Below, piece after piece: positions 5,817-20,621 of a stretch of DNA of 43,204 bases. The notes beneath the pieces are model-generated. The model ran no database searches, had not been told where the DNA came from, and saw only the letters and a program-made list of their open reading frames with translations. The number at the start of each line of letters is the position of its first letter. Positions within the stretch are counted from its first letter, which is position 1. Position numbers and translations under genes: made by a program. The stretch lies in IMG/VR virus record IMGVR_UViG_3300025276_000063, positions 1-43,204 of that record. One strand, given 5' to 3'. The stretch is from a virus.

Positions 5817-6206
5817 CTATTCCATTATTCCTTTTATGTCAAATCCTGGAAGATACTTTTTTGCAAATTCATCAAATACGAATAAAATATCATACCCATC
5901 CCATTTCAACATTTTTGCATATCCTACACCTCTTTCTCTAAGACTACTATCCCAATATTCTTTATTGTTGGTCATCCTATCATCTATTTTAGCCTTTGGA
6001 AATATAGAATCTAATATTCCAGCTTCTGAATGAAAGTTTGCATCTATTAATGCAGCCTTCAATATTGCTTTAAATGAATATTGTAAATCCGTAGAACCTT
6101 TTTCTTCAGTTCCTAAATAAGATTCTAAGTCAGACAAAACTTTTTTACTATTTCTAGCTTCGTTTAAAGATTCGTTTTCTGTTAAGAAATGTTTTAAGTT
6201 ATTCAT
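5817..6206 (-). CDS. Small protein with capsid-targeting-like leader (FLTE and SLNE sites)
   Basis: Function of the body is not recognised. The protein begins MNNLKHFLTE, then NESLNEA, so two L-x-E sites lie at residues 8-10 and 14-16. This matches the layout of the T4 capsid-targeting sequence MKTYQEFIAEA, which the prohead protease gp21 cuts after Glu. The 113-residue remainder is mixed alpha/beta and rich in charged residues, with a C-terminal segment YDILFVFDEFAKKYLPGFD. It heads the left end of a run of three leader-bearing genes (5817-7037) and is closed by a terminator. A GATTAAAAA variant of the late element lies about 10 nt upstream. It is inferred to be an internal head protein. Confidence 0.75.
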   Translation of the reverse strand: MNNLKHFLTENESLNEARNSKKVLSDLESYLGTEEKGSTDLQYSFKAILKAALIDANFHSEAGILDSIFPKAKIDDRMTNNKEYWDSSLRERGVGYAKMLKWDGYDILFVFDEFAKKYLPGFDIKGIME

Positions 6207-6219
6207 AGTTGTAATTTTT

Positions 6220-6798
6220 TTAATCTAATGAACCAAATTTTCCTTTGCCCATATCACTTGCAAAATCTCTTGAACCTTGCGATTGCAATTTAATGTAGTA
6301 AGAATCTGTTGCTTTTCCACCTCTACCAAAATAAGACTTCAACAGAAAAGTATCAATCGTTTTTGCTTTTTTATCTTTAAGAGTTTCTTTTAATGTTTTT
6401 TCAACCTCTTTTCTCCAATTTTTATCACTAGTGTCAATTTTAATACTTTGACTTGCAAATGTATCTAAATCAACCGGAACACTTATTGATGAAATTGTAT
6501 CTGGTAATTTATTAATTGCTTTTAATAAATCTTTTAAAGATTTACCTTCGGATTCAAATCCTTCGTTAATACTTTCTTTAAGTTCAACCATATTCATACC
6601 AACTATTTGCTCTGGTTTAATAGCACCATCGAATTCAATCGGTTCAATGTATACTCTTTTAGTACCGTTGTTAACATTAGTAACTTTATATTCCATGTCC
6701 TTTTCTGCCGGGTCATCTAAGTATTCATCTTTGATAGTAACAATACTACCTTCCTTAAATTTCTTTCCTTCGTTTAAAAATTCGTTTAATGCTTTCAT
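6220..6798 (-). CDS. Leader-bearing protein MKALNEFLNE with a second INE site
   Basis: The first ten residues, MKALNEFLNE, end in L-x-E and are followed by Gly, as expected for a prohead-protease site. Residues 11-60 (KFKEGSIVTIKDEYLDD...VYIEPIEF) look like a small KOW/SH3-like beta barrel. A second site, ESINE followed by G, falls at residues 75-79. Processing would therefore yield a barrel peptide (11-79) and a 113-residue C-terminal part (80-192) containing KTLKETLKDKKAKTIDTF and ending in GKFGSLD. The gene overlaps the next upstream gene by 4 bases. No enzyme motif is recognised. Confidence 0.75.
   Translation of the reverse strand: MKALNEFLNEGKKFKEGSIVTIKDEYLDDPAEKDMEYKVTNVNNGTKRVYIEPIEFDGAIKPEQIVGMNMVELKESINEGFESEGKSLKDLLKAINKLPDTISSISVPVDLDTFASQSIKIDTSDKNWRKEVEKTLKETLKDKKAKTIDTFLLKSYFGRGGKATDSYYIKLQSQGSRDFASDMGKGKFGSLD
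6769..6798 (-). repeat. 30-bp identical repeat encoding MKALNEFLNE, copy 1
   Basis: The first 30 coding bases of the gene starting at 6798 are identical to those of the gene starting at 7037. Identity at third codon positions points to recent duplication or gene conversion of the leader. Confidence 0.9.
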
Positions 6799-7037
6799 TT
6801 ATGTTTTGTTATTTTTTCTATTACTTCATCCCAATAGTCTTGGTGTTCTTTAAATTCATTATCTGAATCAAAATAATTTCTTTCAAAAGCACCCTTTACC
6901 ATCTTAGCATTTTCTACTGCTTTTTTAATTGTATAACGTTTTATAAAACTTAATGCTTTTTCTTGTGTTGTACCATTAAATTTTTCCATTTTTTTAAATG
7001 ATTTCTGTTCGTTTAAAAATTCGTTTAATGCTTTCAT
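6795..7037 (-). CDS. 80-aa protein with capsid-targeting-like leader MKALNEFLNE
   Basis: After the leader and Gln at position 11, the protein is a short basic helical domain (residues 15-80) ending WDEVIEKITKHK. The leader is identical in DNA and protein to that of the following gene, while the bodies are unrelated, so the leader behaves as a portable module. A GATTAAATA element lies only 4 nt upstream of the ATG at 7037, which would give a nearly leaderless transcript if it is the promoter. Function of the body is unknown. By analogy with T4 internal proteins it may be packaged in the head. Confidence 0.72.
   Translation of the reverse strand: MKALNEFLNEQKSFKKMEKFNGTTQEKALSFIKRYTIKKAVENAKMVKGAFERNYFDSDNEFKEHQDYWDEVIEKITKHK
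7008..7037 (-). repeat. 30-bp identical repeat encoding MKALNEFLNE, copy 2
   Basis: Identical to 6769-6798; see that entry. It covers the first ten codons of the 80-aa gene. Confidence 0.9.
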
Positions 7038-7041
7038 AGAC

Positions 7042-7050
7042 TATTTAATC
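7042..7050 (-). promoter_or_regulatory. GATTAAATA late-promoter-like element upstream of the 80-aa leader gene
   Basis: The minus strand reads GATTAAATA, 4 nt upstream of the start at 7037 and just downstream of the uvsX terminator. Confidence 0.5.
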
Positions 7051-7064
7051 CAAGTATAAGATAC

Positions 7065-7097
7065 AAAAAAAATTCCACAAATCAAAGAAATGTGGAA
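7065..7097 (-). terminator. Intrinsic terminator after uvsX
   Basis: The arms TTCCACA (7073-7079) and TGTGGAA (7091-7097) are followed on the minus strand by eight U residues (7065-7072). The hairpin starts 24 nt past the uvsX stop at 7121. Confidence 0.85.
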
Positions 7098-7120
7098 CCT
7101 AATTTTAAAATTATTTTATT

Positions 7121-8335
7121 TTATTCGTCTAATTCAGAAGTATCAATCAATTCTTCAATTTCATCATCTGTTTCTTGTGAACTAAATTCAAAGTCCTTTT
7201 TGACGAGTTCATCGAAACGATCTTCTAAGGGTTGCATTACTCTTTCACTAAACAATTGTCTTGTATCAATTGCTTCACCTAAATGTTCAACAATATATTT
7301 TCTTGCCGTTTCTTTAGGTGCAAAATACATAACCTCTTCGCTATCAGTAGGTGTAAATACTTTTACCTTTTCTTTTGCAGCTCCTGTAAGTTTATTGTAT
7401 TCTTTTTCTGTTAGTAAGTTTCCTTTTGCAATACCTACATTATCCCATCCTAAATAATCTTGAATACCCATATAACGATTAAATGGTCTATCAAAGAAAA
7501 TAGGGAACTTGATTGTTTTTGGTTGTGCAAATCTATTCTTTCCAGTTTTAGCTGTTACAATAACACCCGTTTGTCTTTTTTCATCTTCCTTATCATCTTT
7601 AAGTTTTGCTTTAGATAGATACAAGGTGATACTTGGTGAATAAACAACTCCTCCACCACCACCTTGAACAACTGGGTCTCCATAACCACCAATGTTTACC
7701 ATCGTATGATTTGTAAATATCATTGGAATACCTAACGAATTCAAATCAGAAGTAATAATTCTAAAGAAAGAACGAATTTGTTTTGCTCTAGTCATATCTG
7801 CAGCACTGTTTCCTGTTCTTGCATCTTCGATTTCTTTTGATGATGCGACCATTCCTATTGAATCAAGAACTAATAAAAACTTAGGAATTTTTTGACCTTT
7901 TATTTTTAATGCTGTCAAGTTCTTAATGAAAATAGCATACATCGTTTTCAACTTTTCGATTTCTGAAACGGGTTCGTGTCTAAAGTTTTTCAGATCAATT
8001 CCAAAATTTATACAACTTTGAGGGTCAACTGCTCCTTCAGTATCGTAGTAAATTGGTGTATATCCGGCTAATTGTGCATTCCTTACAGCATTAAGTGTTA
8101 AGAATGTTTTACCAGACCCAGATTCTCCAACTAAAGAAGATTGCTTAGTACTTGGAAATCCTTTTTTAATAGAACCGCTTAGGGCTGCATTTAAAATCCA
8201 ATTACCAGAATCAATCCAAACATTGTTTTTATAAATCTCAGATTCACCAAAATTACTACTACCAAAAGGATTAATCTCGCCAAGTTCTTTGAAAATGTCA
8301 TCAACAGAACTATGTTTTTTACTTGTTTTTGCCAT
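7121..8335 (-). CDS. uvsX: UvsX-like RecA-family recombinase
   Basis: Strand-exchange protein for T4-type recombination-dependent replication, working with UvsY and gp32. Walker A is GESGSGKT at residues 70-77, followed by YYDTEGAVDPQ with the catalytic Glu region. Walker B is LLVLDS at 154-159. MIFTNHTMVNIGGYGDPVVQGGGGGVVYSPS is the L1/L2 DNA-binding region of the family, with a long glycine run. The C-terminus is acidic, ending IEELIDTSELDE. The length of 404 aa is close to T4 UvsX (393). It lies directly downstream of the polymerase C-terminal gene with a 13-base gap, so it probably shares its transcript. Confidence 0.93.
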   Translation of the reverse strand: MAKTSKKHSSVDDIFKELGEINPFGSSNFGESEIYKNNVWIDSGNWILNAALSGSIKKGFPSTKQSSLVGESGSGKTFLTLNAVRNAQLAGYTPIYYDTEGAVDPQSCINFGIDLKNFRHEPVSEIEKLKTMYAIFIKNLTALKIKGQKIPKFLLVLDSIGMVASSKEIEDARTGNSAADMTRAKQIRSFFRIITSDLNSLGIPMIFTNHTMVNIGGYGDPVVQGGGGGVVYSPSITLYLSKAKLKDDKEDEKRQTGVIVTAKTGKNRFAQPKTIKFPIFFDRPFNRYMGIQDYLGWDNVGIAKGNLLTEKEYNKLTGAAKEKVKVFTPTDSEEVMYFAPKETARKYIVEHLGEAIDTRQLFSERVMQPLEDRFDELVKKDFEFSSQETDDEIEELIDTSELDE

Positions 8336-8348
8336 ATTATAAATTATT

Positions 8349-9569
8349 TTAAAATAAACGTTTTTTAATTTTCAACGAACCTGACAATGCATTTATACCA
8401 GGCATCGACTGAATAATATTGTTCAATGGATTAATGACTGTTTTTTCGAACATTAAATCAATATCAATTTCAGGTGCAAATTCTTTAGGATGCGCTCCTC
8501 TATTGAAAGAAAATACGTTATATGCTTCCTTGTGTGATTTTGCATAGTACCACTTAACCTTATCTCCAGTTCTAAGTCTTTCGTACTTATTTTCAAAAGA
8601 TGGATTGTTGTTGATAAACATATTATGAATTGCAGCACCTCTAGTATGTGTACTACAACCACTTGCATAATTCAAACTATCTTTATCGTCTAAAATATAT
8701 TTTTCGTAATCACCTATTCCTGTTGTAATACAAATATCTTCTAAGTCAGCAATTGCAAATCTTTTTTTCAACTTCAATAATTCAATAGTAATATCTCTTT
8801 GTGTGAAATTTTTACCATTGTCAAATATCCATTGAACTAATCTTGACAATTCCGGTCTACAAAAAGGTGGTGTTGTTAAACGAATAATTTCAAGTCCTGT
8901 CGTTTTTGTATAAGTTCCTGGTTCGTAGAACTTACCATCTTGCCAAACAATATCTTGCGTATATTTCTTTTTCTTAACCCAAATACCAGATTTACTTATA
9001 GTTTCTAATTCAAAATCTAAATGATTTTCGGTATTGTACGATTGTGCGTATTTATCAAATACCTTTTTTAGATATCCTTTTAACCTAATTTCATTTATTG
9101 TTAATATTAAATCTGCAGCCGAACCTGTCCAATTTATTTTTTCTGCAGCCTCTTCAAATGTAACATATGCCGAATCCGTATCTATATAAACAACAGTAGG
9201 TTTCGTACAAGGAACGGGTTCTAAGTTTACATCAGGACACATTTCTTTTAGTTTTTTCAAAAGAGCAATATCTTTATGAAACATTTTATGAAAGTAAGTA
9301 TCTAATGCTTTTTCAGAATACCTAATTGCATCTTGACCTTGCATAGTAATAGTTTCAGCAAGTGTTTTATTATAGAAATAAAAATACTTACTGGCCATTG
9401 CACCATATATAGAATTCAATACTAATTTATTGGATTGTTCTAGTGTTGAATATATATTTGCTTCATCTTGTAATTGAGATAGAACCGAATCTGTTTCAGA
9501 TGGAGATAGAGAATCCCAATCGAAATTCTCTATCTCTTCTGTTGACATATTTTGAATAGTTGCTGTCAT
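8349..9569 (-). CDS. 43B: DNA polymerase gp43, C-terminal half (palm motif C, fingers P-helix, thumb)
   Basis: C-terminal part of a family B polymerase. It carries motif B as KLVLNSIYG at residues 48-56 and motif C as YIDTDS at 128-133, with the second catalytic Asp pair. KKKKYTQDI near residue 200 matches the thumb-adjacent KKxY region. It lacks the exonuclease and motif A, which are in the separate gene at 10389-11897. The first 40 residues are acidic and have no obvious family counterpart. The C-terminus ends SLKIKKRLF, plausibly the clamp-binding tail, as T4 gp43 also ends in a short hydrophobic clamp-binding tail. Its ATG overlaps the stop of the clamp gene by 1 base (TAATG). Confidence 0.92.
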   Translation of the reverse strand: MTATIQNMSTEEIENFDWDSLSPSETDSVLSQLQDEANIYSTLEQSNKLVLNSIYGAMASKYFYFYNKTLAETITMQGQDAIRYSEKALDTYFHKMFHKDIALLKKLKEMCPDVNLEPVPCTKPTVVYIDTDSAYVTFEEAAEKINWTGSAADLILTINEIRLKGYLKKVFDKYAQSYNTENHLDFELETISKSGIWVKKKKYTQDIVWQDGKFYEPGTYTKTTGLEIIRLTTPPFCRPELSRLVQWIFDNGKNFTQRDITIELLKLKKRFAIADLEDICITTGIGDYEKYILDDKDSLNYASGCSTHTRGAAIHNMFINNNPSFENKYERLRTGDKVKWYYAKSHKEAYNVFSFNRGAHPKEFAPEIDIDLMFEKTVINPLNNIIQSMPGINALSGSLKIKKRLF

Positions 9570-10357
9570 TAAAGTTCAACTTCTTCATGTAAAGTAATAA
9601 CTACTTCCATAGTTTTGTCGACTGTTTCAAAAATAATCTTATCTTCATCTAAGATTGGATAAACATTATATGAATTTGCATCAACAGCTTTGAACAATTT
9701 CTTATCTAACTTATAAGATTTTTCTCCACCACCTACAAGTCCTTCAAATTCTTCATCTATATCAATAGAATATGAACCTTCTGAACAAACCTTTACTTGA
9801 CCATTAACTTTAAATTCTAATTCATCACTTGAATCGAAATCCATAAATTTCTTAACTTGCAAGATTTCGTTTGCAGTCATTTTAAAGTTACAATCAGAAG
9901 CTGATGTATCTTTTACTTGTGCAATCTTTTCTTCTGGAACATTTGCGAACTCAAAAAGTGTTGGGTCTGCAGCATCTAAAGTTAATGAAATTTTAGGACT
10001 GGAAACTTTCATACTTTCTCCAAAGTATTCGCCATCTAATTCAGAATACACAATTTCAATTTTAATATCATTACCACTTAGAAAACTAAATGCTTTCTTT
10101 ACTTTGTTACCATCATAAAAACAAAGTTTAATAGGTGATGATAAATTTTCATTATCTAAATTTGATTCACCACATAATTCTCCTATTTGCATTCTCATAC
10201 TTTTGATAAGAGTTCCGGATGAATTGTGTGCATCTGTTCTGATTCCTTCTTGGTCTATTTTAAAATAAATAGTTGATGCGTCATCTAAAGGGATTAACGA
10301 ATCTATAAAGTTATTGAACTTTACCAAATCTACGGTTTTTAATATTACTTTCTTCAT
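9569..10357 (-). CDS. 45: gp45-like sliding clamp
   Basis: Candidate processivity clamp. The 262 residues show the alternating strand pattern of PCNA/gp45 proteins, with IYFKIDQEGIRTDAHNSSGTL in the first domain, an acidic surface, and the ending TMEVVITLHEEVEL. T4 gp45 is 228 aa. No short signature motif defines this family, so the call rests on size, fold-like pattern and position between the two polymerase halves. Its stop codon overlaps the start of the polymerase C-terminal gene, so clamp and polymerase fragment are translationally coupled. Confidence 0.72.
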   Translation of the reverse strand: MKKVILKTVDLVKFNNFIDSLIPLDDASTIYFKIDQEGIRTDAHNSSGTLIKSMRMQIGELCGESNLDNENLSSPIKLCFYDGNKVKKAFSFLSGNDIKIEIVYSELDGEYFGESMKVSSPKISLTLDAADPTLFEFANVPEEKIAQVKDTSASDCNFKMTANEILQVKKFMDFDSSDELEFKVNGQVKVCSEGSYSIDIDEEFEGLVGGGEKSYKLDKKLFKAVDANSYNVYPILDEDKIIFETVDKTMEVVITLHEEVEL

Positions 10358-10388
10358 GCTAAATGTATTTGTTTATAGTTAAATGTAA

Positions 10389-11897
10389 TTATTTACGTTT
10401 TTGTTTTATTTCATGTGCTATTTTTGCACATAATTTTGAACGATATTGATTTTTCTTTCTATCAGTGTACAATTCATCATATACTCCTTTCAATGTTGAT
10501 CTTCCTTTTTTGAATATACAACCGGACACTGAAATGATCTCATCGTTCTTAGGTCTTTCAGTTTCGATAGATACTGGTTTATACTTACTGTAAAATTTTA
10601 AATTGTTGGTTTCCTTTCTATCAAAGTTTTCAAAACCTAATTCTAAGAAACGAGAAATAGATGGATACAGTGAACTAAAATCATAACAAGCTGTTAATGT
10701 ATGCAAACCAGCAATTGGTTGTTTTACGTAAGCTCCTTCGTACCATTCTTTTTCTCTTTGAGAAGTATCAATGATTGGCATAACTTTTGATTTTGAAGTA
10801 TATGCCTTAGACATATATCCTTCGGTAACATTTACAGCCGAATCGGCCTTGTCTATTGGATTGCAAGAACCATTTCCTTGTGCCAAGATTGCAGAAAAGG
10901 GTTGTCTTTTTTCGTGAATCAACAAAACAAGAATAGTATCGACTGCGTTATAAAGACAATATGTATCATAATCCTTTGCATACATTTCTTTTAAGACATC
11001 ACCATTCATTACTGGATAGTTACCGTACTTCAACTTTTTTACCTTTAATACATTAGAAGATACAAAATCTAATGATTTAGATTCTTTTACCTTTATACTT
11101 CTATCGAATGCATCAAAGTAATACATATAGTCAACAACTGCAAAATGATGCGGAACTTTACCTACATCTTTTTTGTTATTCAATTTGTTGGTAGGAGAAA
11201 TAGATTTGTAATCAACTTTGAGGTTATCCATTCTTTTAGTTAAGAAAGGCCAATCAAATCCGTTGTCATTTGCCCAATTTGCTCTGAACGTATTTATAAA
11301 GTTCCATCCTGTTATTACAGGGAACTTTGAACATATCTTTACAAACGATTCTAAAAGTTTTACTTCATCAGGAATATGAACATATTTCATTACGATCTTC
11401 AAATCAGTTACCTTAACAAAGTAATCAGATAAGAATTCATTCATCTTCTTTTGCTTATCGTAATCGAAATTTTCTTTTTCTCCTAATATAACAACTTGAA
11501 TTTTATTATTGTCATCTTTCCAACAAACCGTTATTGCAGTTATTTTTTCTTTTGCTAAAGTTACATCCGGGAATCCATCGTGGATATCTGTTTCAATATC
11601 ACAAAATAAAATCTTAGGCATATTGAATTCATACAATATCTTTTTGTATTCTGGTTGTGTGTTAATCCATTCCCAGATACTTTTTTTATCAATTGTATCG
11701 TTATCTTTGTAGGAAATTCTTACTACTCTTTTATCATCCCAAGATTTGTATTTGATGTCGGCATTAGGACCTTCATAGTATCTCCACTTCCAGAAATCTC
11801 TTTTTTTAACAGACAAGATTTGTCTATTTCTATCAGAATCAATATAAGAAATATTAACAGTATCTGAATACCTATTTTGTTCTATGTCTAATATCAT
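10389..11897 (-). CDS. 43A: DNA polymerase gp43, N-terminal half (exonuclease and palm motif A)
   Basis: N-terminal part of the replicative family B polymerase. The 3'-5' exonuclease motifs are present: Exo I FCDIETD with D100 and E102, Exo II GWN (197-199) and FDWPF (from 214), and Exo III YNAVD (316-320). Polymerase motif A is DFSSLYPS at 406-413. The protein stops soon after the first fingers helix, ending KIAHEIKQKRK, before motif B. N-half plus C-half total 908 residues, against 898 for T4 gp43, so little is missing. Between GWN and FD there are about 14 residues where T4 has only three. The start overlaps the stop of the 83-aa gene. Confidence 0.92.
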   Translation of the reverse strand: MILDIEQNRYSDTVNISYIDSDRNRQILSVKKRDFWKWRYYEGPNADIKYKSWDDKRVVRISYKDNDTIDKKSIWEWINTQPEYKKILYEFNMPKILFCDIETDIHDGFPDVTLAKEKITAITVCWKDDNNKIQVVILGEKENFDYDKQKKMNEFLSDYFVKVTDLKIVMKYVHIPDEVKLLESFVKICSKFPVITGWNFINTFRANWANDNGFDWPFLTKRMDNLKVDYKSISPTNKLNNKKDVGKVPHHFAVVDYMYYFDAFDRSIKVKESKSLDFVSSNVLKVKKLKYGNYPVMNGDVLKEMYAKDYDTYCLYNAVDTILVLLIHEKRQPFSAILAQGNGSCNPIDKADSAVNVTEGYMSKAYTSKSKVMPIIDTSQREKEWYEGAYVKQPIAGLHTLTACYDFSSLYPSISRFLELGFENFDRKETNNLKFYSKYKPVSIETERPKNDEIISVSGCIFKKGRSTLKGVYDELYTDRKKNQYRSKLCAKIAHEIKQKRK

Positions 11898-12145
11898 TTA
11901 TCGTTTTCCTTTTCTTGTTCTTTAGTTTCCGTATCACTTAAAATACCTGCCGATTCACATAAGGTAAGTATAAATTCTACAGTTTCATCGTGCAATTCGA
12001 TAGTAACTTTTCCATTCTTTTTAAATCCTACTTTATTTTTCTGTGCATGTATTTCATTTTTAAGTGTTCCGAAAACGTCAATAAACGAATTCACATCGTC
12101 ATTGGTTAATTGTAAATCTAGAATATTACTAATTCTTAGTTCCAT
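11894..12145 (-). CDS. Unknown 83-aa protein upstream of polymerase N-half
   Basis: Not recognised. The frame extends upstream to a possible ATG at 12238, but that would overlap the divergent glycosyltransferase gene and add a stretch of atypical Phe/Leu-rich residues. The internal ATG at 12145 (protein starting MELRISNILDLQL) is therefore chosen; it is preceded by the promoter-like element at 12162-12176. The protein has a compact alpha/beta centre (VGFKKNGKVTIELHDETVEFIL) and a charged tail ETKEQEKENDK. It overlaps the polymerase N-half start (ATGA), so it is the first gene of the polymerase-clamp-uvsX operon. It might be a replication-associated regulator, but nothing in the sequence proves this. 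Confidence 0.7.
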   Translation of the reverse strand: MELRISNILDLQLTNDDVNSFIDVFGTLKNEIHAQKNKVGFKKNGKVTIELHDETVEFILTLCESAGILSDTETKEQEKENDK

Positions 12146-12161
12146 AAAAATATTTGCTTTG

Positions 12162-12176
12162 TTATACTTATTAAAT
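12162..12176 (-). promoter_or_regulatory. 15-bp promoter-like element, copy 2
   Basis: The minus strand reads ATTTAATAAGTATAA, 16 nt upstream of the ATG at 12145, in the divergent gap before the polymerase operon. The plus strand of the same spot reads ATTAAATAAG, so it might also serve the glycosyltransferase gene. Confidence 0.5.
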
Positions 12177-12213
12177 AAGAAAGAAAGAAGTTTTATTTTA
12201 AAGAATTTAAACA

Positions 12214-13056
12214 ATGTCAGAAAAACCTGCAAAACCAATTGATGTTGATGTCATCATAATATCTTGGGCAAAAAACAAAGAACTACTTCAAGAAACAACA
12301 AAATGTTTACAAACATTATTTGATAGTGAAGATTGCTCTTTAATACGTTTTAATGCAATTGTAGTTGAAAGTGATACAGAAACATCTTTTGATGAATTTG
12401 AAACCAAAGGACATACTATAAAAACAATTCATCCTAAAGTATCTCATCCAGATTTAGAATTCGGATACCACACTTACTTAAATTTAGGATTAGAACAAGG
12501 AACAGCTGAATGGTCTTGTTTATGCAATAACGATTTAGACTTTAAGAAAAACTGGGCATTGAAAATATTACAAGTTATTTTTAGTCAAAGAAAACTAAAT
12601 GAAAAACAATGGAAATATGTTTCGGCATCTCCGGCCAATCCAAAAGAGCAATGGCATAAAGAAAATTTAGATAAAGTAGAAGTTGGATATAGTGTTCGTA
12701 ATCATGTTGCTGGTTGGTGTTTATTTCAATCAAGAAATGTTTTTGAAAAGTTCGGTAAATTAGAAGAACGAATAAAATTTTGGTTTTGTGATAATTGGTA
12801 TTCTGTTGCCTGTCAATGGTACAAGATACCTCACATTTTTGTAGGAACTTCAATTGTAGAACATCACAGTGGTACAGAGGGAACAACTACTATTCAAAGT
12901 CAAATGGAAAAGGATGAAAAACACAAATTGACATATGGAGCTGGAGATGAATTCAGGGAAATTGTTAGGGAAATGATGAATGATGAAACTTGGGGTGTAC
13001 TAGATGAAAAACAACAAAAGGCAATTGAACAAAAGACTGGTAAGAAATACTATTAA
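12214..13056 (+). CDS. Family 2-type (GT-A) glycosyltransferase
   Basis: Probable glycosyltransferase acting on DNA, host surface glycan or another target that cannot be told from sequence. It starts with a beta strand VDVIIISWAKNKELL, typical of the GT-A nucleotide-sugar fold, and has an N-N-D-L-D motif at residues 115-119 in the place of the metal-binding DxD (CNNDLDF). Later it has VAGWCLFQSRNVFEKFG and FWFCDNWYSVACQ, which resemble the acceptor-side region, and IVEHHSG at the end of the domain. It is one of only three plus-strand genes. It diverges from the polymerase operon and ends at a strong terminator, so it is a self-contained transcription unit. Confidence 0.8.
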   Translation: MSEKPAKPIDVDVIIISWAKNKELLQETTKCLQTLFDSEDCSLIRFNAIVVESDTETSFDEFETKGHTIKTIHPKVSHPDLEFGYHTYLNLGLEQGTAEWSCLCNNDLDFKKNWALKILQVIFSQRKLNEKQWKYVSASPANPKEQWHKENLDKVEVGYSVRNHVAGWCLFQSRNVFEKFGKLEERIKFWFCDNWYSVACQWYKIPHIFVGTSIVEHHSGTEGTTTIQSQMEKDEKHKLTYGAGDEFREIVREMMNDETWGVLDEKQQKAIEQKTGKKYY

Positions 13057-13057
13057 C

Positions 13058-13181: not shown

Positions 13182-13198
13182 ATCTTATTTAATTTTAT

Positions 13199-15922
13199 TT
13201 ACATATCGTAAAAAGGTTTTTCAGAGTTATCTATTCCTTCATTCACATTTCCTTTAAAATAGTTACAATATTCTACATGATTAACTTTCAAGAAACCTTC
13301 AACTAACTTTTCTATTGCGTAGTCATTCAATCCTTCCATAATTAAGAAAGGTTTTAAATGTCTTTTAATAAAATTACTTTCAAGTACATTGTCTTTGAAT
13401 TTATCAAAATCTAATATAGATTCAGTTAATTTAGAATCGTATTGAAAGTCTTTGAATTTTTGTAGTTTACTTTCAGAAATTTTAGATAAGAAAGGAATAA
13501 AATCTTTTTCGTCATTTTCTAATTCTAAAGTTCCCTTTCTAAACATCAAAATCTTTTCGAAAATTTTAACATTAGATTTTGTCAAAGACTGATTGTGTAG
13601 TTCTTCATCTAAAGATTCTCTCATTAATTGGTCGTGGTACATAACTAATTCATATGTATTTCCATCAACCCCTCTATTGTAAATAGAAATGTGTAAGTTT
13701 CCTATTGGTTCTTTTCCTTGTTTGTCTCGAAAAATAGTAATAGTTTTACTTTGCGTTTTACCTTTTTTTGGCTTAAAAAATGCATCACCAAATGCACCAA
13801 AAAATTCTTGTTGATTATAAAAATAACCATTGTCTTCTATGTAGTTAGCAACATTGTCTAATGTTGTACCATATCCAGCCGCATATGTAGGATATTCTTT
13901 TTTAAATTTTAATTTAGGTTTTCTTCCTTCGTTCACATTTTCTTGTAATTTTTCATGTTTCATCCACCTTTCGTAAAAGGCTTTTCCTGCATTCTTCATA
14001 TCCTCTTCAGATCTATATGCATCAAATGATAATCCTATTTTTAATAAGATTTCTTCTTTCTCTTTGATATTCTTTCTAGCTTTATATGCTTGCTCTGCCA
14101 TGCTCATTGACCACGTAGACTGATTCCTCCATTGTTCATTGAAATCTTTTTCGGTATACTTACCCCAATTTTTAGTATTTGTAGGAGGGTAAATACGGTC
14201 AAGAAAACCGGCATTTACTAATTTTTCAAGGTCAGATTTTTCATTCAATTCAGATTCTTTCATATTTATGGCATTTTGCATATTTTCTTGTAAATTTTTA
14301 GGTAAAGGAATTGATTGTTTGATTCGTTGTTTTCGATTGGTATTGTGATATACATCATCAGGTATTTCATATTCTATATATATAACATCTTGAATATAAT
14401 CCACCGCAATTCCTTTTATAGATTTTACTATTTCATCTATCTCTTTTTTATAATTCCAATATCTTTTTCTAAGGTATTCTTCAACATAATCATAAATTTG
14501 AGGTGTTGCTTGTTGAATATCTTCTTTATCTAAGTACTTTTTAATGGACTTAACTGCTTTTTTAAAGTTAAACTTTTCATTCAATTCAGATTCGTTCATA
14601 TTTATGGCATTTTGCATATTAATTGATAATCTGATAATATCGGCATAATCTTTATAAGTTAATCCGTAATTTTCGTCATTTTCTTTAGTACCAATATCGA
14701 ACATTTCTTTTGCTTGTTTTTCTATATTACCACTTTTGATTCTATATGTCCCCTTTCTTTTACCAGAATCCATAAATCTCATTTCGTCAGTATAATGTGG
14801 GTCTGTTGACCAACCAGAACTCTGGTCTACTTCAATAGAAAAATGAACTTCATCGTCATTTTTGTAAACAGTCCAACCATTTCCGGATTGATAAGTTTTA
14901 CCTTTTTTATATTTGATTGCTTCTTCTAAAGATAGCATATCTATATTGTATATTTCGGCTTGTTCCTTGATAAAGGTTAATTGATTTTTATCTTTACCGT
15001 ATTCTTTTTGTAATGATGAAATGTAATTCCTAAATATAGAACCTAAAGAATGCATTGCCGATTGTCTATTTTCTAATTTATCATCTGAACCGTTTTGTCC
15101 TTTAATTGCATTTATACCATCTACAAATCTATCATCCAAATCTTTAAGATATTCACTAAAGGTTTGTCTCTTTGACTTTTTTTCGTTTAATTCATAATCT
15201 AAAATAGATTCAACTATTAAAGCATCAGAAAATAAATCTTCACCATAAGATTCCAATATGTCAGAAATTGTATCTACATCTAAATTACAATCCATAACAA
15301 CAGATTCAATATCAACAGATTCGGCAAGTACTGCTGTATCTTCTAATTCATCTTTAAGTTGTTTGTAGTAAGGATGAATTTGTTTAGGTGTAAATTTTTT
15401 GAATTTCTTTTCATCACCATCTATAATTGCTTGTCTAACTTCGGTTCCTGATGTTAGTCTTCCTTTTAATTCTTGAATTGCAAAATCAGGATGCGTAGTA
15501 ATGTTTTTCATTCTCTTTGCCATCCCAGTATAAGTTTTTGCTCTATCTTCTCCGGCACCAATTAGAACTGGATTGTATCCTCTGCGTTGAGTTTCCATTA
15601 TAACAACCGGAATAAATGAACCGGTCATACTCCAGGCATCTCTAACTAAATCTTGACCTTTTGCAATATCATCCATATAGTTGATAGTCAAATTATCACT
15701 AAATTTAGAATTTTTTCCACTTTTACTTCTTATGTAAATATAGACCGATGGCAATCCATTAATTTTTTCTAATTCTTTGGCCATACCTAAATGTCCTATT
15801 GTGAATGGTTGATATCTTCCGATAACAACATTAACTGGTTCTAAATGGGATTGGTCATTTTCTGATTCCATATCTTTTAGTTCAGTAATTATATCTTTTT
15901 TTATAATATCTTCTTTTGCCAT
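13199..15922 (-). CDS. Apparent polyprotein: NMNAT/cytidylyltransferase-like domain followed by modules separated by [LV]NE sites
   Basis: Residues 30-195 form a HIGH-superfamily nucleotidyltransferase: GRYQPFTIGHLGM (the GRxxPxxxGH motif), GAGEDRAKT, and TSGTEVRQAI in place of the ISxTxxR motif. Family members make NAD or CDP/ADP-linked products. The remaining 700 residues have no enzyme I recognise but contain regularly placed prohead-protease-like sites: ELNE/K after 247, ELNE/K after 449, ELNE/K after 561, VNE/G after 665 and VNE/G after 895. Two of the sites lie in a 16-residue repeat (NMQNAINMNESELNEK, one change). The predicted pieces are about 247, 202, 112, 104, 230 and 12 residues. 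The N-terminus itself has no leader. An ATTAAATA element lies 18 nt upstream. Confidence 0.85.
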   Translation of the reverse strand: MAKEDIIKKDIITELKDMESENDQSHLEPVNVVIGRYQPFTIGHLGMAKELEKINGLPSVYIYIRSKSGKNSKFSDNLTINYMDDIAKGQDLVRDAWSMTGSFIPVVIMETQRRGYNPVLIGAGEDRAKTYTGMAKRMKNITTHPDFAIQELKGRLTSGTEVRQAIIDGDEKKFKKFTPKQIHPYYKQLKDELEDTAVLAESVDIESVVMDCNLDVDTISDILESYGEDLFSDALIVESILDYELNEKKSKRQTFSEYLKDLDDRFVDGINAIKGQNGSDDKLENRQSAMHSLGSIFRNYISSLQKEYGKDKNQLTFIKEQAEIYNIDMLSLEEAIKYKKGKTYQSGNGWTVYKNDDEVHFSIEVDQSSGWSTDPHYTDEMRFMDSGKRKGTYRIKSGNIEKQAKEMFDIGTKENDENYGLTYKDYADIIRLSINMQNAINMNESELNEKFNFKKAVKSIKKYLDKEDIQQATPQIYDYVEEYLRKRYWNYKKEIDEIVKSIKGIAVDYIQDVIYIEYEIPDDVYHNTNRKQRIKQSIPLPKNLQENMQNAINMKESELNEKSDLEKLVNAGFLDRIYPPTNTKNWGKYTEKDFNEQWRNQSTWSMSMAEQAYKARKNIKEKEEILLKIGLSFDAYRSEEDMKNAGKAFYERWMKHEKLQENVNEGRKPKLKFKKEYPTYAAGYGTTLDNVANYIEDNGYFYNQQEFFGAFGDAFFKPKKGKTQSKTITIFRDKQGKEPIGNLHISIYNRGVDGNTYELVMYHDQLMRESLDEELHNQSLTKSNVKIFEKILMFRKGTLELENDEKDFIPFLSKISESKLQKFKDFQYDSKLTESILDFDKFKDNVLESNFIKRHLKPFLIMEGLNDYAIEKLVEGFLKVNHVEYCNYFKGNVNEGIDNSEKPFYDM
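14238..14284 (-). repeat. 47-bp direct repeat inside the 907-aa gene, copy 1
   Basis: Matches 14574-14620 at 46 of 47 positions. It encodes the NMQNAINMKESELNEK segment around the third predicted cleavage site. Confidence 0.9.
14574..14620 (-). repeat. 47-bp direct repeat inside the 907-aa gene, copy 2
   Basis: The partner of 14238-14284, 336 bp (112 codons) away and in frame. It encodes NMQNAINMNESELNEK around the second predicted cleavage site. Confidence 0.9.
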
Positions 15923-15923
15923 A

Positions 15924-16421
15924 CTAAGTATTTGTTTTCTTATTTAATGTGTTTCGTTTTTCTAGTTTTTCTTTATACAATAATATTTTCAAATGAAAAG
16001 AACTAAGGATTAGTATAGTAATTATTTCTCCTAAAAGAATACTGTAAGGATATGCTAATATAGATATCATATATAAAATTCTAAAAAATTTATATCTGTT
16101 GATTTTAAATAAACAATATAAACAAGAAAAATAAAAACATACTGCAAATATATTGTGGAATAATTGATAATCTGCCCAACTAAAACTTGTTAATAGCATT
16201 AAGAAAAAACTTGGTATTTTCCAATTCTTTAACGAAAAAAAGAAATAAGAACATATAATATTTGATATTATAAAAAGTGGTTGAAACTCCGTAGTCCAAT
16301 ACTGGGATAAAGAATCTAGTATCCCTATATTATAAATCATAATAAAAGGATATATTAAAGATAAAAAAATTGCAAATACTTTTACGTGAAACTCTCTAAC
16401 TACCCCATTTACTTGTATCAT
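15924..16421 (-). CDS. Multi-pass membrane protein, unknown
   Basis: A 165-residue hydrophobic protein with about five predicted membrane segments: around VFAIFLSLIYPFIMIYNIGIL, PLFIISNIICSYFFF, IPSFFLMLLTSFSW, IFAVCFYFSCLYCLF and ILYMISILAYPYSILLGEIITILIL. The C-terminal tail is basic (LYKEKLEKRNTLNKKTNT), so it should face the cytoplasm. There is no catalytic motif. Its stop lies 1 base before the start of the 907-aa gene, and it follows a terminator, so it probably begins a new unit. An ATTAAATA element lies 6 nt upstream of the ATG. A role in host membrane modification, exclusion or lysis cannot be distinguished. Confidence 0.75.
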   Translation of the reverse strand: MIQVNGVVREFHVKVFAIFLSLIYPFIMIYNIGILDSLSQYWTTEFQPLFIISNIICSYFFFSLKNWKIPSFFLMLLTSFSWADYQLFHNIFAVCFYFSCLYCLFKINRYKFFRILYMISILAYPYSILLGEIITILILSSFHLKILLYKEKLEKRNTLNKKTNT

Positions 16422-16437
16422 TTATATTATTTAATAC

Positions 16438-16466
16438 AAAAAAAAAGACTACAAAAATGTAGTCTT
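16438..16466 (-). terminator. Intrinsic terminator after the 69-aa gene
   Basis: The arms AAGACTACA (16445-16453) and TGTAGTCTT (16458-16466), with a 4-base loop, are followed on the minus strand by a nine-base U-run. Confidence 0.85.
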
Positions 16467-16497
16467 TAAATTTTAATACTTCGATGATACTGTTTTA

Positions 16498-16707
16498 TTA
16501 TCTTAATTTTTTCAATTCAGTATGTTGTTTTCTACTTACAATTTTAACAACAGTTCCGTCTTCGAAAGTTGCTGATTTGTGTGTTAGTTGAATAACTTTA
16601 CCTTTCCCTTCAGCCTTAACAACTTTTTCTTTAACTACTTCGTCAACTTTAACTTCGTCAACAACTTTAACTTCTTTTTCTACGATTTCTTTCTTATCTT
16701 TAGCCAT
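16498..16707 (-). CDS. Small Lys/Glu/Val-rich protein, unknown
   Basis: A 69-residue protein. The first half is a low-complexity run of VEKEVKVVDEVKVDEVVKEK type, rich in K, E and V. The second half (KGKVIQLTHKSATFEDGTVVKIVSRKQHTELKKLR) is basic and could form a small beta structure. A longer opposite-strand frame exists but is only the Asn/Phe-rich mirror of the same repeats, so the minus-strand gene is preferred. A GATTAAATA element lies 22 nt upstream and a terminator follows, which supports a genuine monocistronic gene. Function unknown. Confidence 0.65.
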   Translation of the reverse strand: MAKDKKEIVEKEVKVVDEVKVDEVVKEKVVKAEGKGKVIQLTHKSATFEDGTVVKIVSRKQHTELKKLR

Positions 16708-16729
16708 AATAATATATTTTTTTATAATG

Positions 16730-16738
16730 TATTTAATC
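16730..16738 (-). promoter_or_regulatory. GATTAAATA late-promoter-like element upstream of the 69-aa gene
   Basis: Exact GATTAAATA on the minus strand, 22 nt upstream of the start at 16707. Confidence 0.55.
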
Positions 16739-16745
16739 TAAAAGG

Positions 16746-17948
16746 TTACAAAGTCTTTTTCCATTCGCTGAATGTTAAGAATGCTTCGTTTACCTTTGAG
16801 GTTATATCTTTAACTTTACTAACAACTAAATTTATTTGATTTTTTAAATTATCATCAATTCTTTTTGTTTTTCTTTTTTTAAGTTTTCTAAAACTAGATA
16901 GTAAAATTTTAAATATTTCTTCCGAATCTTTATTTTTCTTTACAAAATCTACAACATCTTTACTTTTAATCATTTTTGTATTCAATGCAAATTCCGGTGC
17001 TTTTGCAAAATCTGGTTTTTTAATGTTAAGTCCTTTCAAGAAAGTTGAATTTTCATCAATGAATCTTTTTATTACTCTAGTCATTAAGTCTAAATATTTT
17101 TCATCTTCGTTTGAACCATCAGCAATAAAATCTTTGAATACATCACTTTCTTCTACCCAACCAATAAATGAATATAGGACTAATCCAAATTCATCGTTAG
17201 TATCTTGTTGGTTAACTCTTGCGTGTGCTTTATCTCTTGCCATTTGAGTAAACATTGGATCAACTACCTTTGCTAAATATTCGCCATCGTTGAACTTAAA
17301 AACTAAACCTTCAATCGGTTTGTCTAATGTATTGTTCAATGCTGTTTTCTTTAATTTAGGGTCCAAGATAGAAACAATAAACTTAGTAAAAGATGAAGTA
17401 TTAAATTCTTTTACTAAATCTTCAAATGGCGTTTTTAAAAAGTCTTCTAATTGTTCTTTTTGTAATTTACTCAATGCTCCATCAAAAATTATAAAAGGTT
17501 CTTCTACATCAAAATACTTTGACCACTTTTTTAAAGTTCTTGGGTCGTCAATAAATTTAACAACTTTACCTTTGTCATTCATTTCTTTCATATGTGTTAA
17601 GACTAATCCATTTTTTGGTAGTCTATCATATGCAATAGAAACTGGTTTTGTATTTTGAAAATACTCAAATCCAAATCTTAAATTGTCAGGTAATTTTTTA
17701 GAACCAACGATTTTTTGTATATATTCAATAGGTGGTTCATACAAAGACATTATAGTTCTATCCAATTTAGTTATTGGTTGTCTATCATCTCTTTTAAAGA
17801 AATCCATAGTACCTTCTGCATTTTGTTGTGCAGAAAAAACAGAACCATCTGGTTTTTCAGAAACTACTAATTTCTTATTAAAAAGGTTATTTATAAATTC
17901 TGAACCTTGTTTACTGTATATGTCGAATAGGTGTTGTAATCCTGCCAT
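16746..17948 (-). CDS. RNA-ligase-like covalent nucleotidyltransferase
   Basis: Predicted ATP-dependent polynucleotide (RNA) ligase. The motifs of the superfamily are in order: motif I as EKPDGS with the adenylated Lys at residue 32, motif III-like RFGFEYF near 91-97, motif IV as EGLVFKF at 213-219, and motif V as YLAKVVDP at 224-231. The C-terminal 160 residues are helical and basic (KKRKTKRIDDNLKNQ), a likely RNA-binding or specificity domain. It is next to a polymerase-beta-like nucleotidyltransferase gene, with only 19 bases between them, suggesting a shared job in RNA end repair. Substrate is not determined by sequence. T4 Rnl1/Rnl2 are the functional precedents, but it is not a close match to either. 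Confidence 0.75.
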   Translation of the reverse strand: MAGLQHLFDIYSKQGSEFINNLFNKKLVVSEKPDGSVFSAQQNAEGTMDFFKRDDRQPITKLDRTIMSLYEPPIEYIQKIVGSKKLPDNLRFGFEYFQNTKPVSIAYDRLPKNGLVLTHMKEMNDKGKVVKFIDDPRTLKKWSKYFDVEEPFIIFDGALSKLQKEQLEDFLKTPFEDLVKEFNTSSFTKFIVSILDPKLKKTALNNTLDKPIEGLVFKFNDGEYLAKVVDPMFTQMARDKAHARVNQQDTNDEFGLVLYSFIGWVEESDVFKDFIADGSNEDEKYLDLMTRVIKRFIDENSTFLKGLNIKKPDFAKAPEFALNTKMIKSKDVVDFVKKNKDSEEIFKILLSSFRKLKKRKTKRIDDNLKNQINLVVSKVKDITSKVNEAFLTFSEWKKTL

Positions 17949-17967
17949 GATATATCTTTTTTTAAAT

Positions 17968-18906
17968 TTACGAATTTTTTAGGTAAAATGCAAATTTTTT
18001 CATCTTAAAATCGAAATTTTCTTTTACACCTAATTCTTTAGGTAATGGTAAACCTTTTCTGTTGATAACATCTACAAAATAGTTAACAATTTTAGAAAGG
18101 TCTTTCTTCCAGGGGAAATCTTTCTTTTGCATTGCTTTCCAAACAGATTCAAACGAATTCGTATCTTTAATTGTTGCATCAATACCTAATAGCGATTTTG
18201 TAATTAGTTCAGGGTCTTTACTTATGAACTCTTCCCATTCACTCTTACCATTTTTTACAAGTTTACCTGTTTTTCCTACGTAAGATTTTATTTGTTTTTT
18301 ATATCCTTTGTTTGGGTCTAACATAATTCTACCCCGTTTCTTAATTTGTCCTTTATATTTTCCTTCGAATTCATCTTCCCAATATGTTGTAAGTCCTTCA
18401 TCAGTAACAGCATATCCAATAGCTTTCAATAATTCCGTTCTATATAAACCTTTCCAAGCTGATTCTTGTTTTGTAAAATCTGGGGAATGAAACATCCATC
18501 TAGCAAAATCAATGTTATCTTGTAGCATTAAATCAACTTGAACATTTCCACTACCACCTTTGATTGGATATGCTAATGAAAGTATTCCTAATCCATGCAT
18601 ATAGTTTTTATCCATTTTAGGATATGCAACATCTAGTAAATCTAAAATCTTTTGACCAACTTCTTCTTTTGAAATGTTTAAATTCTTTGCTATTGCACTA
18701 GTATCAATTGCAATATCAATATCTCCACTTGTTTGTCCGGGTAGTTTTTTCCCTGTTGAACCTAATGCGGCCCATTCTTTACCTTTAAGTTTTAGAAATC
18801 TAATTAAGATTTTCTTATCTATGTCTTTTAAAGTTGGCATAGTTTCCTCTGCTTTAATTGGCATTACGTTAGGAACTGCCTTTCCACCTTCGAATAATTT
18901 AATCAT
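17968..18906 (-). CDS. Polymerase-beta-superfamily nucleotidyltransferase
   Basis: The nucleotidyltransferase signature is clear: LGS at residues 48-50, then SGDIDIAID at 60-68 with the first two metal-binding Asp, and NVQVDLML with the third Asp at 125. Members add nucleotides to RNA 3' ends or to small molecules and proteins. The N-terminus MIKLFEGGKAVPN contains L-F-E followed by Gly, which also fits the prohead-protease rule, but this is weak because the motif is short. It lies just upstream of the RNA-ligase-like gene, and the two probably form one unit. A GATTAAATA element lies 19 nt upstream. The precise substrate is unknown. Confidence 0.78.
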   Translation of the reverse strand: MIKLFEGGKAVPNVMPIKAEETMPTLKDIDKKILIRFLKLKGKEWAALGSTGKKLPGQTSGDIDIAIDTSAIAKNLNISKEEVGQKILDLLDVAYPKMDKNYMHGLGILSLAYPIKGGSGNVQVDLMLQDNIDFARWMFHSPDFTKQESAWKGLYRTELLKAIGYAVTDEGLTTYWEDEFEGKYKGQIKKRGRIMLDPNKGYKKQIKSYVGKTGKLVKNGKSEWEEFISKDPELITKSLLGIDATIKDTNSFESVWKAMQKKDFPWKKDLSKIVNYFVDVINRKGLPLPKELGVKENFDFKMKKFAFYLKNS

Positions 18907-18925
18907 AGTATAGATATGTTTTTAT

Positions 18926-18934
18926 TATTTAATC
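18926..18934 (-). promoter_or_regulatory. GATTAAATA late-promoter-like element upstream of the nucleotidyltransferase gene
   Basis: Exact GATTAAATA on the minus strand, 19 nt upstream of the start at 18906 and just past the preceding terminator. Confidence 0.6.
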
Positions 18935-18937
18935 AAC

Positions 18938-18965
18938 AAAAAAAAGGAACTTAAAAAGTTCCTTT
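18938..18965 (-). terminator. Intrinsic terminator after the 285-aa leader protein gene
   Basis: Perfect 10-bp arms AAAGGAACTT (18943-18952) and AAGTTCCTTT (18956-18965) have a 3-base loop and are followed by U-rich sequence on the minus strand. Confidence 0.88.
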
Positions 18966-18990
18966 ATAATAGTATTTCTATTTTTTATTT

Positions 18991-19848
18991 TTAGTACAAA
19001 TCTTTTAATGCACTTCTTAGTAATTTCATTATTTGCTTGTCTCTTTTATTAGTACTACCTGCTAATAATGCCAATGCTTCTTTAATAGAACCTTCTGCAT
19101 ATCCATCTTCATTCAATTTAGCTTCGTGCATTGATTCATCGTGTTTAAAAACAAGACTAAAAATTACACCGTCTTTGTCGATATCAATTTTACCGTCTTT
19201 ATGTAACTTTTCCATTTCTGATTTAGTAACAGATATTTCTGCAGTATCACCTTTTTCGTGTTCAAGAATGTTTCCATCCATGTCATACTCAGCTTCCGGT
19301 AATCCAGCAGCTTGTCTTAATTCGATATCATCAGCTTCGATAAAATCAGAAAGTGCTTCAAGTTCTGCAATTTCACCATAACTTAGGTCTTCTCTTCTTA
19401 AAGATTGTCTAATTTGTTCTAGTCTTTTTTTAGCGTCTTTTTCTTTGATTTTCTTTGCTTCATTTACCTTTTTTTTACTAGATTCGTTATAACTATCTTC
19501 TTCCATTTCATCGTCTTCAGATTCTTCTACCTCTTCGTCTTCAGATGAATATAATTCCTCTTTGTCTTTTCCTTTGTCTTTAGATTCGTAAGATTCTTTC
19601 TTAGCTTTCATTTTCTTAGAATCATCATCTTCTTCAGAATCATAATCTTCTTCAACTTGCTTTTCGTTTGTTGGTTCTTGTGTCCACTCTTTATCTATTT
19701 CATTAAAGAATTTCTTTTTGTCAGCATCAGATAATTCAGCTGGAGATTTAACATCAAATTTCTTTAATTTTTTATCAAAAAATTCTTGATATTCTTTTTG
19801 TTTTTTTGACTTTTCAGCTTCGTTTATAAAATTAGTTAACTTTTTCAT
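18991..19848 (-). CDS. Acidic leader-bearing protein MKKLTNFINE, probable internal or core head protein
   Basis: Leader MKKLTNFINE followed by Ala, an I-x-E/A site as in T4 internal proteins. Residues 11-55 contain EFFDKKLKKFDVKSPAELSDADKKKFFNE, a segment that I recall as recurrent in proteins of T4-like marine phages. Residues 66-128 are a very acidic low-complexity linker. Two further sites follow, KKVNE/A after 130 and KLNE/D after 247. Between them lies a conserved-looking region (LSYGEIAELEALSDFIEADDIELRQAAGLPE). The acidic, multiply cleavable design resembles scaffold-core or internal proteins. A GATTAAATA element lies 25 nt upstream, and a terminator follows. No catalytic motif is seen. 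Confidence 0.78.
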   Translation of the reverse strand: MKKLTNFINEAEKSKKQKEYQEFFDKKLKKFDVKSPAELSDADKKKFFNEIDKEWTQEPTNEKQVEEDYDSEEDDDSKKMKAKKESYESKDKGKDKEELYSSEDEEVEESEDDEMEEDSYNESSKKKVNEAKKIKEKDAKKRLEQIRQSLRREDLSYGEIAELEALSDFIEADDIELRQAAGLPEAEYDMDGNILEHEKGDTAEISVTKSEMEKLHKDGKIDIDKDGVIFSLVFKHDESMHEAKLNEDGYAEGSIKEALALLAGSTNKRDKQIMKLLRSALKDLY

Positions 19849-19873
19849 GTAAAATGTTTTATTTTTCTTTGTT

Positions 19874-19882
19874 TATTTAATC
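19874..19882 (-). promoter_or_regulatory. GATTAAATA late-promoter-like element upstream of the 285-aa leader gene
   Basis: Exact GATTAAATA on the minus strand, 25 nt upstream of the start at 19848; its first base is part of the stop codon of the gene upstream. Confidence 0.55.
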
Positions 19883-20382
19883 TATTCGTTTATTGTAGTT
19901 TTGTTTATAACTCTTTGACCTAAATTAGAAAGTTTACAACATATTACACCATCTTTTTTAAATTCTTTAATGTATGATGAATTTTTATTAAACCAACTCA
20001 TACTAGTTCTAGAACCAGAATCTTCATTTTTTGATTGTATAAATTCTTTTAATTCTTGTTTAGTACAATGTCCTTTTTCTGCAATGAAACCTAATATGTT
20101 ATTTCTAACAGGGGCATTTGCACCAACTTTTATAGAATCATATTGACCGTATTTTCTTTTTACTTGTAAAGTTTTTCTTTCGTCAATCTTTTCTGGTAAA
20201 TTAGTTTCTTTAGTTTCAGCGTAATCTTTTAGTTTATCTTCTGGTAACTTTGAAAGTTCTATTATTTCATCGGACACATCATCTTCTAATTCTCCTCTTT
20301 TATATGCCAATGCCATACCGAATAATCTTCTTTGAGATTTTGACTTAGATGCTTCATTTAAAAATTCATTAAGTGATTTCAT
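19882..20382 (-). CDS. Leader-bearing DUF3008-like protein with winged-helix-like C-terminus
   Basis: Leader MKSLNEFLNE followed by Ala. Residues 17-66 (RRLFGMALAYKRGELEDDVSDEIIELSKL...LPEKI) match the pattern I know from DUF3008 proteins of T4-like phages (RxFGMxxAxxxGE...VKDFAxTKHxxLPEK). Residues 93-160 (NNILGFIAEKGHCTKQELKEFIQ ... GVICCKLSNLGQRVI) look like a winged-helix DNA-binding domain. The last residues are TTINE, so the protein also ends in an I-x-E site. It is a candidate for a packaged DNA-binding protein delivered with the genome. The gene is followed by the 285-aa leader gene. Confidence 0.78.
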   Translation of the reverse strand: MKSLNEFLNEASKSKSQRRLFGMALAYKRGELEDDVSDEIIELSKLPEDKLKDYAETKETNLPEKIDERKTLQVKRKYGQYDSIKVGANAPVRNNILGFIAEKGHCTKQELKEFIQSKNEDSGSRTSMSWFNKNSSYIKEFKKDGVICCKLSNLGQRVINKTTINE

Positions 20383-20384
20383 AA

Positions 20385-20621
20385 CTACTTTATTTTTTTA
20401 TAAATAGAAACCCAACTCGAACCTATTTCTTGTAAGGAATCTGGATTTGTATTTTTAGGTTTATTTCTAGTAGTTACACTTAATTGTATCATACCGTCTA
20501 ATAACGCAATAACGTTTGCTTTTTCTAAAGATTCATATTCTGAATCCCCATATTTAGAATCTAAATATTCTTTTATTTGCAATGAAAAATTTTCATTCAG
20601 AAAATAACAAAGGTCCTTCAT
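20385..20621 (-). CDS. 78-aa protein with leader MKDLCYFLNE
   Basis: The first ten residues end FLNE and are followed by Asn, fitting the leader family. The remaining 68 residues are a small helical domain (SLQIKEYLDSKYGDSEYESLEKANVIALLDGMIQL) with a short polar C-terminal part. No motif is recognised. It sits between uvsW (start at 22167, stop at 20629) and the DUF3008-like gene, with a TTAAATA variant of the late element 5 nt upstream. Probably a minor packaged protein. Real-gene confidence comes from the leader and tight spacing. Confidence 0.7.
   Translation of the reverse strand: MKDLCYFLNENFSLQIKEYLDSKYGDSEYESLEKANVIALLDGMIQLSVTTRNKPKNTNPDSLQEIGSSWVSIYKKIK

Follow-up and report, generated by a model that had tools for sequence, protein, structure and literature searches.

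T-even phages are reported to have at least 10 internal proteins (Ips) (PMC12373910), which have only their leader in common; Ip1-Ip3 of T4 inhibit type IV restriction enzymes (PMC12373910), blocking the GmrSD enzymes (PMC12373910, PMC3012670). In T4 IPIII, positions 4 and 7 of the leader serve targeting and positions 8 and 10 processing (PMC9026906). Here we describe a leader of this type in the 43,204-base virus record IMGVR_UViG_3300025276_000063 (the window, meaning the whole stretch of DNA analysed), in which six genes for unrelated proteins open with variants of M-K-x-L-N-E-F-[LI]-N-E. It is proposed that these are very probably capsid-targeting leaders of the T4 internal-protein kind, which are cut by a gp21-type protease and whose mature bodies are ejected with the DNA.

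In principle such tagging is not new, because T-even Ips already share a leader and have a known anti-restriction role. As in T4 IPI, IPII, IPIII and Alt, a ten-residue leader ending in [LI]-x-E and conserved at positions 4, 7, 8 and 10 stands on unrelated bodies, a gp21-family protease and a gp23 motif occur in the same phage group, and the genes form variable cassettes. The consensus is LNEFLNE here and YxEFIAE in T4; unlike in T4, there are multi-module proteins joined at the cut motif and a protease fused to a scaffold-like tail. In the giant phages SPN3US and phiKZ a gp21-type prohead protease likewise trims N-terminal propeptides of head and ejection proteins, but most of these propeptides are much longer, with AxE and SxE motifs (PMC5694885). 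Tenacibaculum phage PTm1 and Chryseobacterium phage MA9V-2 (the latter viewed over 50 kb only) also have protease-scaffold fusions with long protease genes, and capsid-protein [IL]NE/S sites (INE/S and FLNE/S; a slash marks a presumed cut throughout), with no leader excess in PTm1, unlike here. No such leaders outside T-even phages were found in the literature searched (T4, giant-phage and polyvalent-protein papers, with subscription journals largely uncovered), and, judged by that literature, what appears to be new is the extent, the type of leader and the presence of multi-module proteins.

A conserved leader on otherwise unrelated proteins

The window is a 43-kb fragment with 40 called genes, including T4-type replication genes, and no tRNA gene was found in it. 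A UvsX search of IMG/VR yielded five close contigs (G001-G005), the most distant being G004 (85% in UvsX). The leader carriers are a group of uncultured marine T4-like phages. The preliminary description, made from the window sequence without database searches, had listed six leader genes, and all six are present at the coordinates given for them (Table 1), on the minus strand; they are named below by their first coordinate. Residues 8-10 of the leaders are [LI]NE in five cases and LTE in one, and the residue that follows is N (5817), G (6220), Q (6795), A (18991 and 19882) or N (20385). Identity of two leaders over 30 bp of DNA had also been claimed; it is exact for 6220 and 6795 and ends at base 30. 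In 6/40 window genes residues 7-10 read F/Y-[LI]-x-E, where the full set of internal 10-mers from these proteins predicts 0.056, and after internal Met the motif was found at none of 225 positions in window proteins. Glu stands at residue 10 in 10/40 genes, eight of them with hydrophobic residues at 4, 7 and 8, while Glu at any other position from 8 to 25 in combination with those hydrophobics is found in 0 or 1 genes each.

The same pattern emerges from a set of 12 contigs (the window, G001-G005, G017, G018, G019, G021, G024 and G026; 938 genes in 379 families). Glu10 is present in 92 of the 379 families, and 59 of these also have hydrophobic residues at 4, 7 and 8, as against 0-3 families for Glu at each of 11 other positions between 8 and 30; the conserved positions of the leader, 4, 7, 8 and 10, coincide with the targeting and processing positions of T4 IPIII. 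A few of the 59 look like chance (for example MEIFLDVIQE, MIQINGVVRE and MKSIYIIYNE), and in 43 of them E10 is followed by S, A, G or N. The motif F/Y-[LI]-x-E at residues 7-10, counted as in the window, is present in 8/35 genes in G001, 12/67 in G002, 9/55 in G003 and 10/85 in G005, and the largest contig, G024 (171,834 bases), has the full pattern at residue 10 in 14/216 called genes. The partial genomes have about 8-17 tagged genes, and cargo families number in the tens across the group; the number and variety of tagged proteins look far larger than in T4.

The back-translated leader recovered 61 stretches from IMG/VR with 86 sites, every one of which opens an open reading frame of at least 40 amino acids; at 80/86 a stop codon lies in frame no more than 20 codons upstream. 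When the same residues were scrambled, one order gave 3 stretches, all from a single protein and inside it rather than at its start, and a second order gave none. In the GTDB collection (about 85,000 prokaryote genomes) the pattern had three matches (a frame 10 residues long, a site not at a start, and a helix-turn-helix-like protein), none of them a convincing leader gene. A T4-type pattern, MKxYxEFIAE, found 58 stretches including T4-like IP proteins, with 23 body families among 51 distinct proteins, and a control run on T4 recovered IPII, IPIII and the FLTE/A site of gp23. No clear shared promoter was seen upstream of the leader genes by k-mers.

Two weaker members of the preliminary list found no support. 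The protein of 26834 fits L/I-x-E poorly because its candidate leader ends in FFKE in four relatives (G001, G002, G003 and G005) and in FVKE only in the window; that of 17968 (LFE/GG) has Glu in position 6, and its alignment with Lak-B phage homologues begins at residue 1.

The interval 5817-7037, between the gp41-like helicase gene and UvsX, is a variable cassette site: in a comparison of five contigs it contained between 1 and 5 genes, almost all with leaders.

Protease and capsid protein of the relatives

A gp21-like protease had been named as a check on the T4 reading. It is found in relatives: PF03420 (gp21-type protease) and PF07068 (gp23) both match in three of the five UvsX-selected contigs (G002, G004 and G005), and neither matches in G001 or G003, both of which are fragments. 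Among 35 further leader-matching records, many shorter than 30 kb, the protease occurs in 6 and gp23 in 7. The protease of the relatives belongs to the gp21 family (S77) and is fused to a long scaffold-like tail. Its sequence aligns with the His and Ser blocks of T4 gp21, where we take the catalytic residues to be His85 and Ser140, the alignment itself showing only a His and a Ser there. In G005 the tail contains 8 [LIV]NE sites against 0.66 by shuffling.

The gp23 of seven contigs (G002, G004, G005, G017, G021, G024 and G026) has LNE/NN...GMG[AG]V at about residue 45-60, a position from which LNE/N is presumed to be the end of the propeptide, comparable to FLTE/A of T4 gp23. The gp23 of G005 had no sequence match in the PDB. 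Relatives of the gp23 in this group point to Bacteroidota phages as an indication of the hosts. The closest gp23 in the phage collection is that of LR756500, a 462-kb uncultured phage; in about 150 kb of it that was read, three proteins (L148-L150) have a somewhat longer leader ending in FINE or FLNE.

A 342-residue protein of the window (27355-28383) contains FNE/NDFAATPGSVNGMGAVEIP, nearly the same as the presumed gp23 cut region of the relatives, and a second site, SLNE/G, ahead of a glycine-rich hydrophobic C-terminal stretch. A segment similar to 27937-28038 adjoins a leader gene in G024.

Modules come and go at the presumed cut motif

Between orthologues, modules are added, missing or divided at [LIVF]NE junctions more frequently than expected by chance. 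The window protein of 6220 consists of the leader, a first module, ESINE/ and a second module, whereas in G005 the leader is joined directly to the second module. The protein of 19882 is one chain with KIDE/RKT in the window versus two leader genes in G003, the second opening with FLNE/RKT. Modules of 13199 and 18991 are likewise gained or lost at [LIV]NE across the relatives. Among 74 unique internal insertions of at least 15 residues between orthologous pairs from 8 contigs, with sliding of gaps handled, 18 touch [LIVF]NE within 3 residues where 5.25 are expected. An earlier fixed-window test on 115 insertions (230 ends) placed 24 ends at [LIV]NE (8.5 expected) and 65 at the looser motif [LIV]xE (47.3 expected). 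No insertion in it was flanked by [LIV]NE on both sides, since junction repeats allow the gap to slide; the two tests are not comparable, since the later one uses 8 contigs, a stricter set and [LIVF]NE.

The protein of 13199-15922 is a mosaic with a repeated ESELNEK segment, and in G001 and G002 two such segments enclose an additional module some 115 residues long. Close to its N-terminus is a weak cytidylyltransferase match.

The cargo bodies

The preliminary description had called the bodies behind the leader unrelated, and the 123 leader proteins of the window and its relatives do fall into 66 body families (blastp of bodies, E<1e-3). With the 66 representatives as queries, 23 Pfam families scored at E≤0.01, and a single protein can account for several of these, so that most bodies match no known family. 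Pfam assignments include ART-PolyVal, an ADP-ribosyltransferase (ART) domain (L036, E=4.7e-20), DUF6321 (L073, E=1.2e-20), GNAT (L062, E=2.1e-10) and a HiPIP-like match (L066, E=1.6e-5). A DUF3008-like protein had been suggested among the bodies; the DUF3008 match of 19882 stands (E=1.3e-5) but is limited to residues 13-65, and past residue 68 lies the second module, which is a separate gene with its own leader in G003. Against the phage collection this protein had one weak match. A KOW-like barrel, also suggested, received no confirmation from Pfam or PHROGs. Two cargo families (DUF6321-like and HiPIP-like) occur under both leader types.

Homologues of the leader protein L050 in phages of other kinds align from query residue 11 or later in all 30 matches listed of 48, which fits the view that the leader is an addition. 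Most of the matches listed for the ART begin at residue 11-18, and Pseudomonas phage F116 aligns from residue 1. This ART parallels in kind T4 Alt, an injected ART. Polyvalent proteins of phages and plasmids (PMC5512222) share part of the domain stock (ART-PolyVal and a possible metallopeptidase, 26834) and a predicted role at entry, but carry several domains in one large polypeptide, whereas the proteins here are mostly small and separate, every one bearing a leader of its own. In the window the six leader proteins (78-285 amino acids) have at most one Pfam domain each above its cut-off, and none unites several disparate domains.

One further leader protein (L056:2923-3327) has the motifs HHMTI and PHVTI and weak similarity to proteins of crAss-like Bacteroides phages. 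Its two HxT-like motifs, seen by eye, make a two-motif phosphoesterase possible, presumably of the kind that goes by the names 2H phosphoesterase and Acb1. A structure model (A2, from three near-identical sequences) had a mean predicted local distance difference test score (pLDDT) of 35, and phmmer against the PDB found nothing useful.

Proposed loading pathway and rival explanations

We propose that the first ten residues would direct a protein into the core of the prohead; in the relatives the scaffold-like part of this core is fused to the gp21-type protease. The protease would cut after [LI]-x-E at residue 10, as presumably at LNE/N of gp23 and inside the scaffold, and the mature body would stay in the head until ejected with the DNA. 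Targeting, cleavage, packaging, injection and a role of the cargo in counter-defence or host takeover are what we infer from these features, and mature N-termini at residue 11 are predicted. In this proposal any small gene may turn into cargo by gaining a leader, because a ten-residue tag suffices, and such easy gain would lead to fast cargo turnover, copying of leaders between genes, and fusion or splitting of neighbours at the cut site.

The T4 reading had been put forward with genomic predictions, and those tested came out right, in relatives. Several points weigh against it. PF03420 has no match in the window fragment. G004 encodes the protease, yet has F[LI]xE in only 2/87 genes. PTm1 shows 6 leaders against 6.08 expected despite its fused protease-scaffold and capsid INE/S; since it has the fused protease but not the leader set, the leader system is not universal among related phages. 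Six of the 12 contigs (G017, G018, G019, G021, G024 and G026) were picked for holding leader-pattern matches. As for the junctions, 56/74 insertions lie away from [LIVF]NE, several of the 18 that touch it have poorly aligned flanks, and the 18 are not independent because they cluster in few protein families. No virion proteomics was found in the literature for this phage group; in the accessible sources none was found for PTm1 either, and for MA9V-1 only a gel.

An unlikely alternative accepts prohead targeting and cleavage and holds the proteins to be mainly core or scaffold parts that are digested and lost rather than injected. Some members are indeed acidic and have several sites (three in 18991), like T4 core proteins cut into fragments (PMC5694885, PMC9026906), but many leader proteins are single-site, and enzyme-like bodies such as ART-PolyVal and GNAT are among them. 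Considerably less probable is that the leader is an uncut docking helix for another structure, of phage or host (the replisome or a membrane, for instance), its likeness to the gp21 motif being coincidental. Three window leader genes lie between the gp41-like helicase and UvsX genes and cleavage has not been seen so far, but in T4, too, ipI-ipIII are found apart from the head genes, the same motif recurs in gp23 and the scaffold-like tail of the relatives, modules break directly after E, and a small residue follows E in most leaders. That copying of DNA or optimised translation initiation explains the leaders is hardly credible: besides the 30-bp identity, one DNA version accounts for 8 of the 11 MKALNEFLNE copies in the first six contigs, but synonymous codons are used at every leader position across the 86 sites, and divergent spellings retain the hydrophobic 4/7/8 and E10.

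Cargo loading by the T4-type leader may extend to a general platform, in which a ten-residue address and a protease junction load any small gene or a string cut apart from a polyprotein, giving a dozen or more injected proteins; we consider the case for and against this wider reading evenly balanced. If it is true, the arsenal would include an ADP-ribosyltransferase, an acetyltransferase, a possible phosphoesterase with two HxT motifs, an iron-sulphur-like protein and many unassigned members, a fast-changing cargo that would probably serve against host defence and for takeover of the host. The leader would then allow injected effectors of uncultured phages to be detected from genomes alone; being readable from sequence, it would list candidate injected proteins, most with bodies of no known family, for phages that have never been cultured.

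Other features of the window

The coordinates of the leader genes and associated features are collected in Table 1. The protein of 5817-6206 has a second candidate site, ESLNE/A, at residues 12-16, just past its leader.

Table 1. Leaders, leader proteins, candidate cut sites and related features of the window.
Feature	Coordinates	Strand	Evidence or remark
Leader MNNLKHFLTE of 129-residue protein	6177..6206	-	Orthologues in G002, G003, G005
Leader protein, body without assigned function	5817..6206	-	No Pfam or PHROG match
Leader MKALNEFLNE of 192-residue protein	6769..6798	-	30-bp DNA identity with 6795-7037 leader
Two-module leader protein	6220..6798	-	First module, residues 11-79, missing in G005
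Internal candidate cut site ESINE/GFESEGK, after residue 79 of 6220-6798 protein	6562..6570	-	Aligns with G005 FLNE/GFESEGK
Leader MKALNEFLNE of 80-residue protein 6795-7037	7008..7037	-	Leader motif count, 30-bp identity
Leader protein, body without firm match	6795..7037	-	Weak PHROG endonuclease match, E=0.0013
Leader MKKLTNFINE of 285-residue acidic protein	19819..19848	-	Sequence, relatives
Leader protein with internal KKVNE/A and AKLNE/D sites	18991..19848	-	3 [LIV]NE sites against 0.16 expected
Leader MKSLNEFLNE of DUF3008 protein	20353..20382	-	Sequence, Pfam
DUF3008 module (residues 13-65), then second module after KIDE/RKT	19882..20382	-	Pfam, comparison with G003
Internal candidate cut site KIDE/RKTLQVKRKYG	20179..20187	-	Aligns with FLNE/RKTVQVKRKYR opening separate G003 gene
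Leader MKDLCYFLNE of 78-residue protein	20592..20621	-	Sequence, relatives
Leader protein, body without Pfam or PHROG assignment	20385..20621	-	Pfam, PHROGs
907-residue multi-module protein without N-terminal leader	13199..15922	-	5 [LIV]NE sites against 0.73 expected
FNE/NDFAATPGSVNGMGAVEIP...GSGDV segment in 342-residue protein 27355-28383	27937..28038	-	Common to presumed gp23 cut region of relatives
Doubtful member, MQYLFEFVKE/D	26834..27355	-	Weak DUF6782 metallopeptidase match, below its cut-off

Two further genes, 178-1179 in the window and G005:42106-43008, have by eye the look of GIY-YIG homing endonucleases and lie between conserved replication genes.

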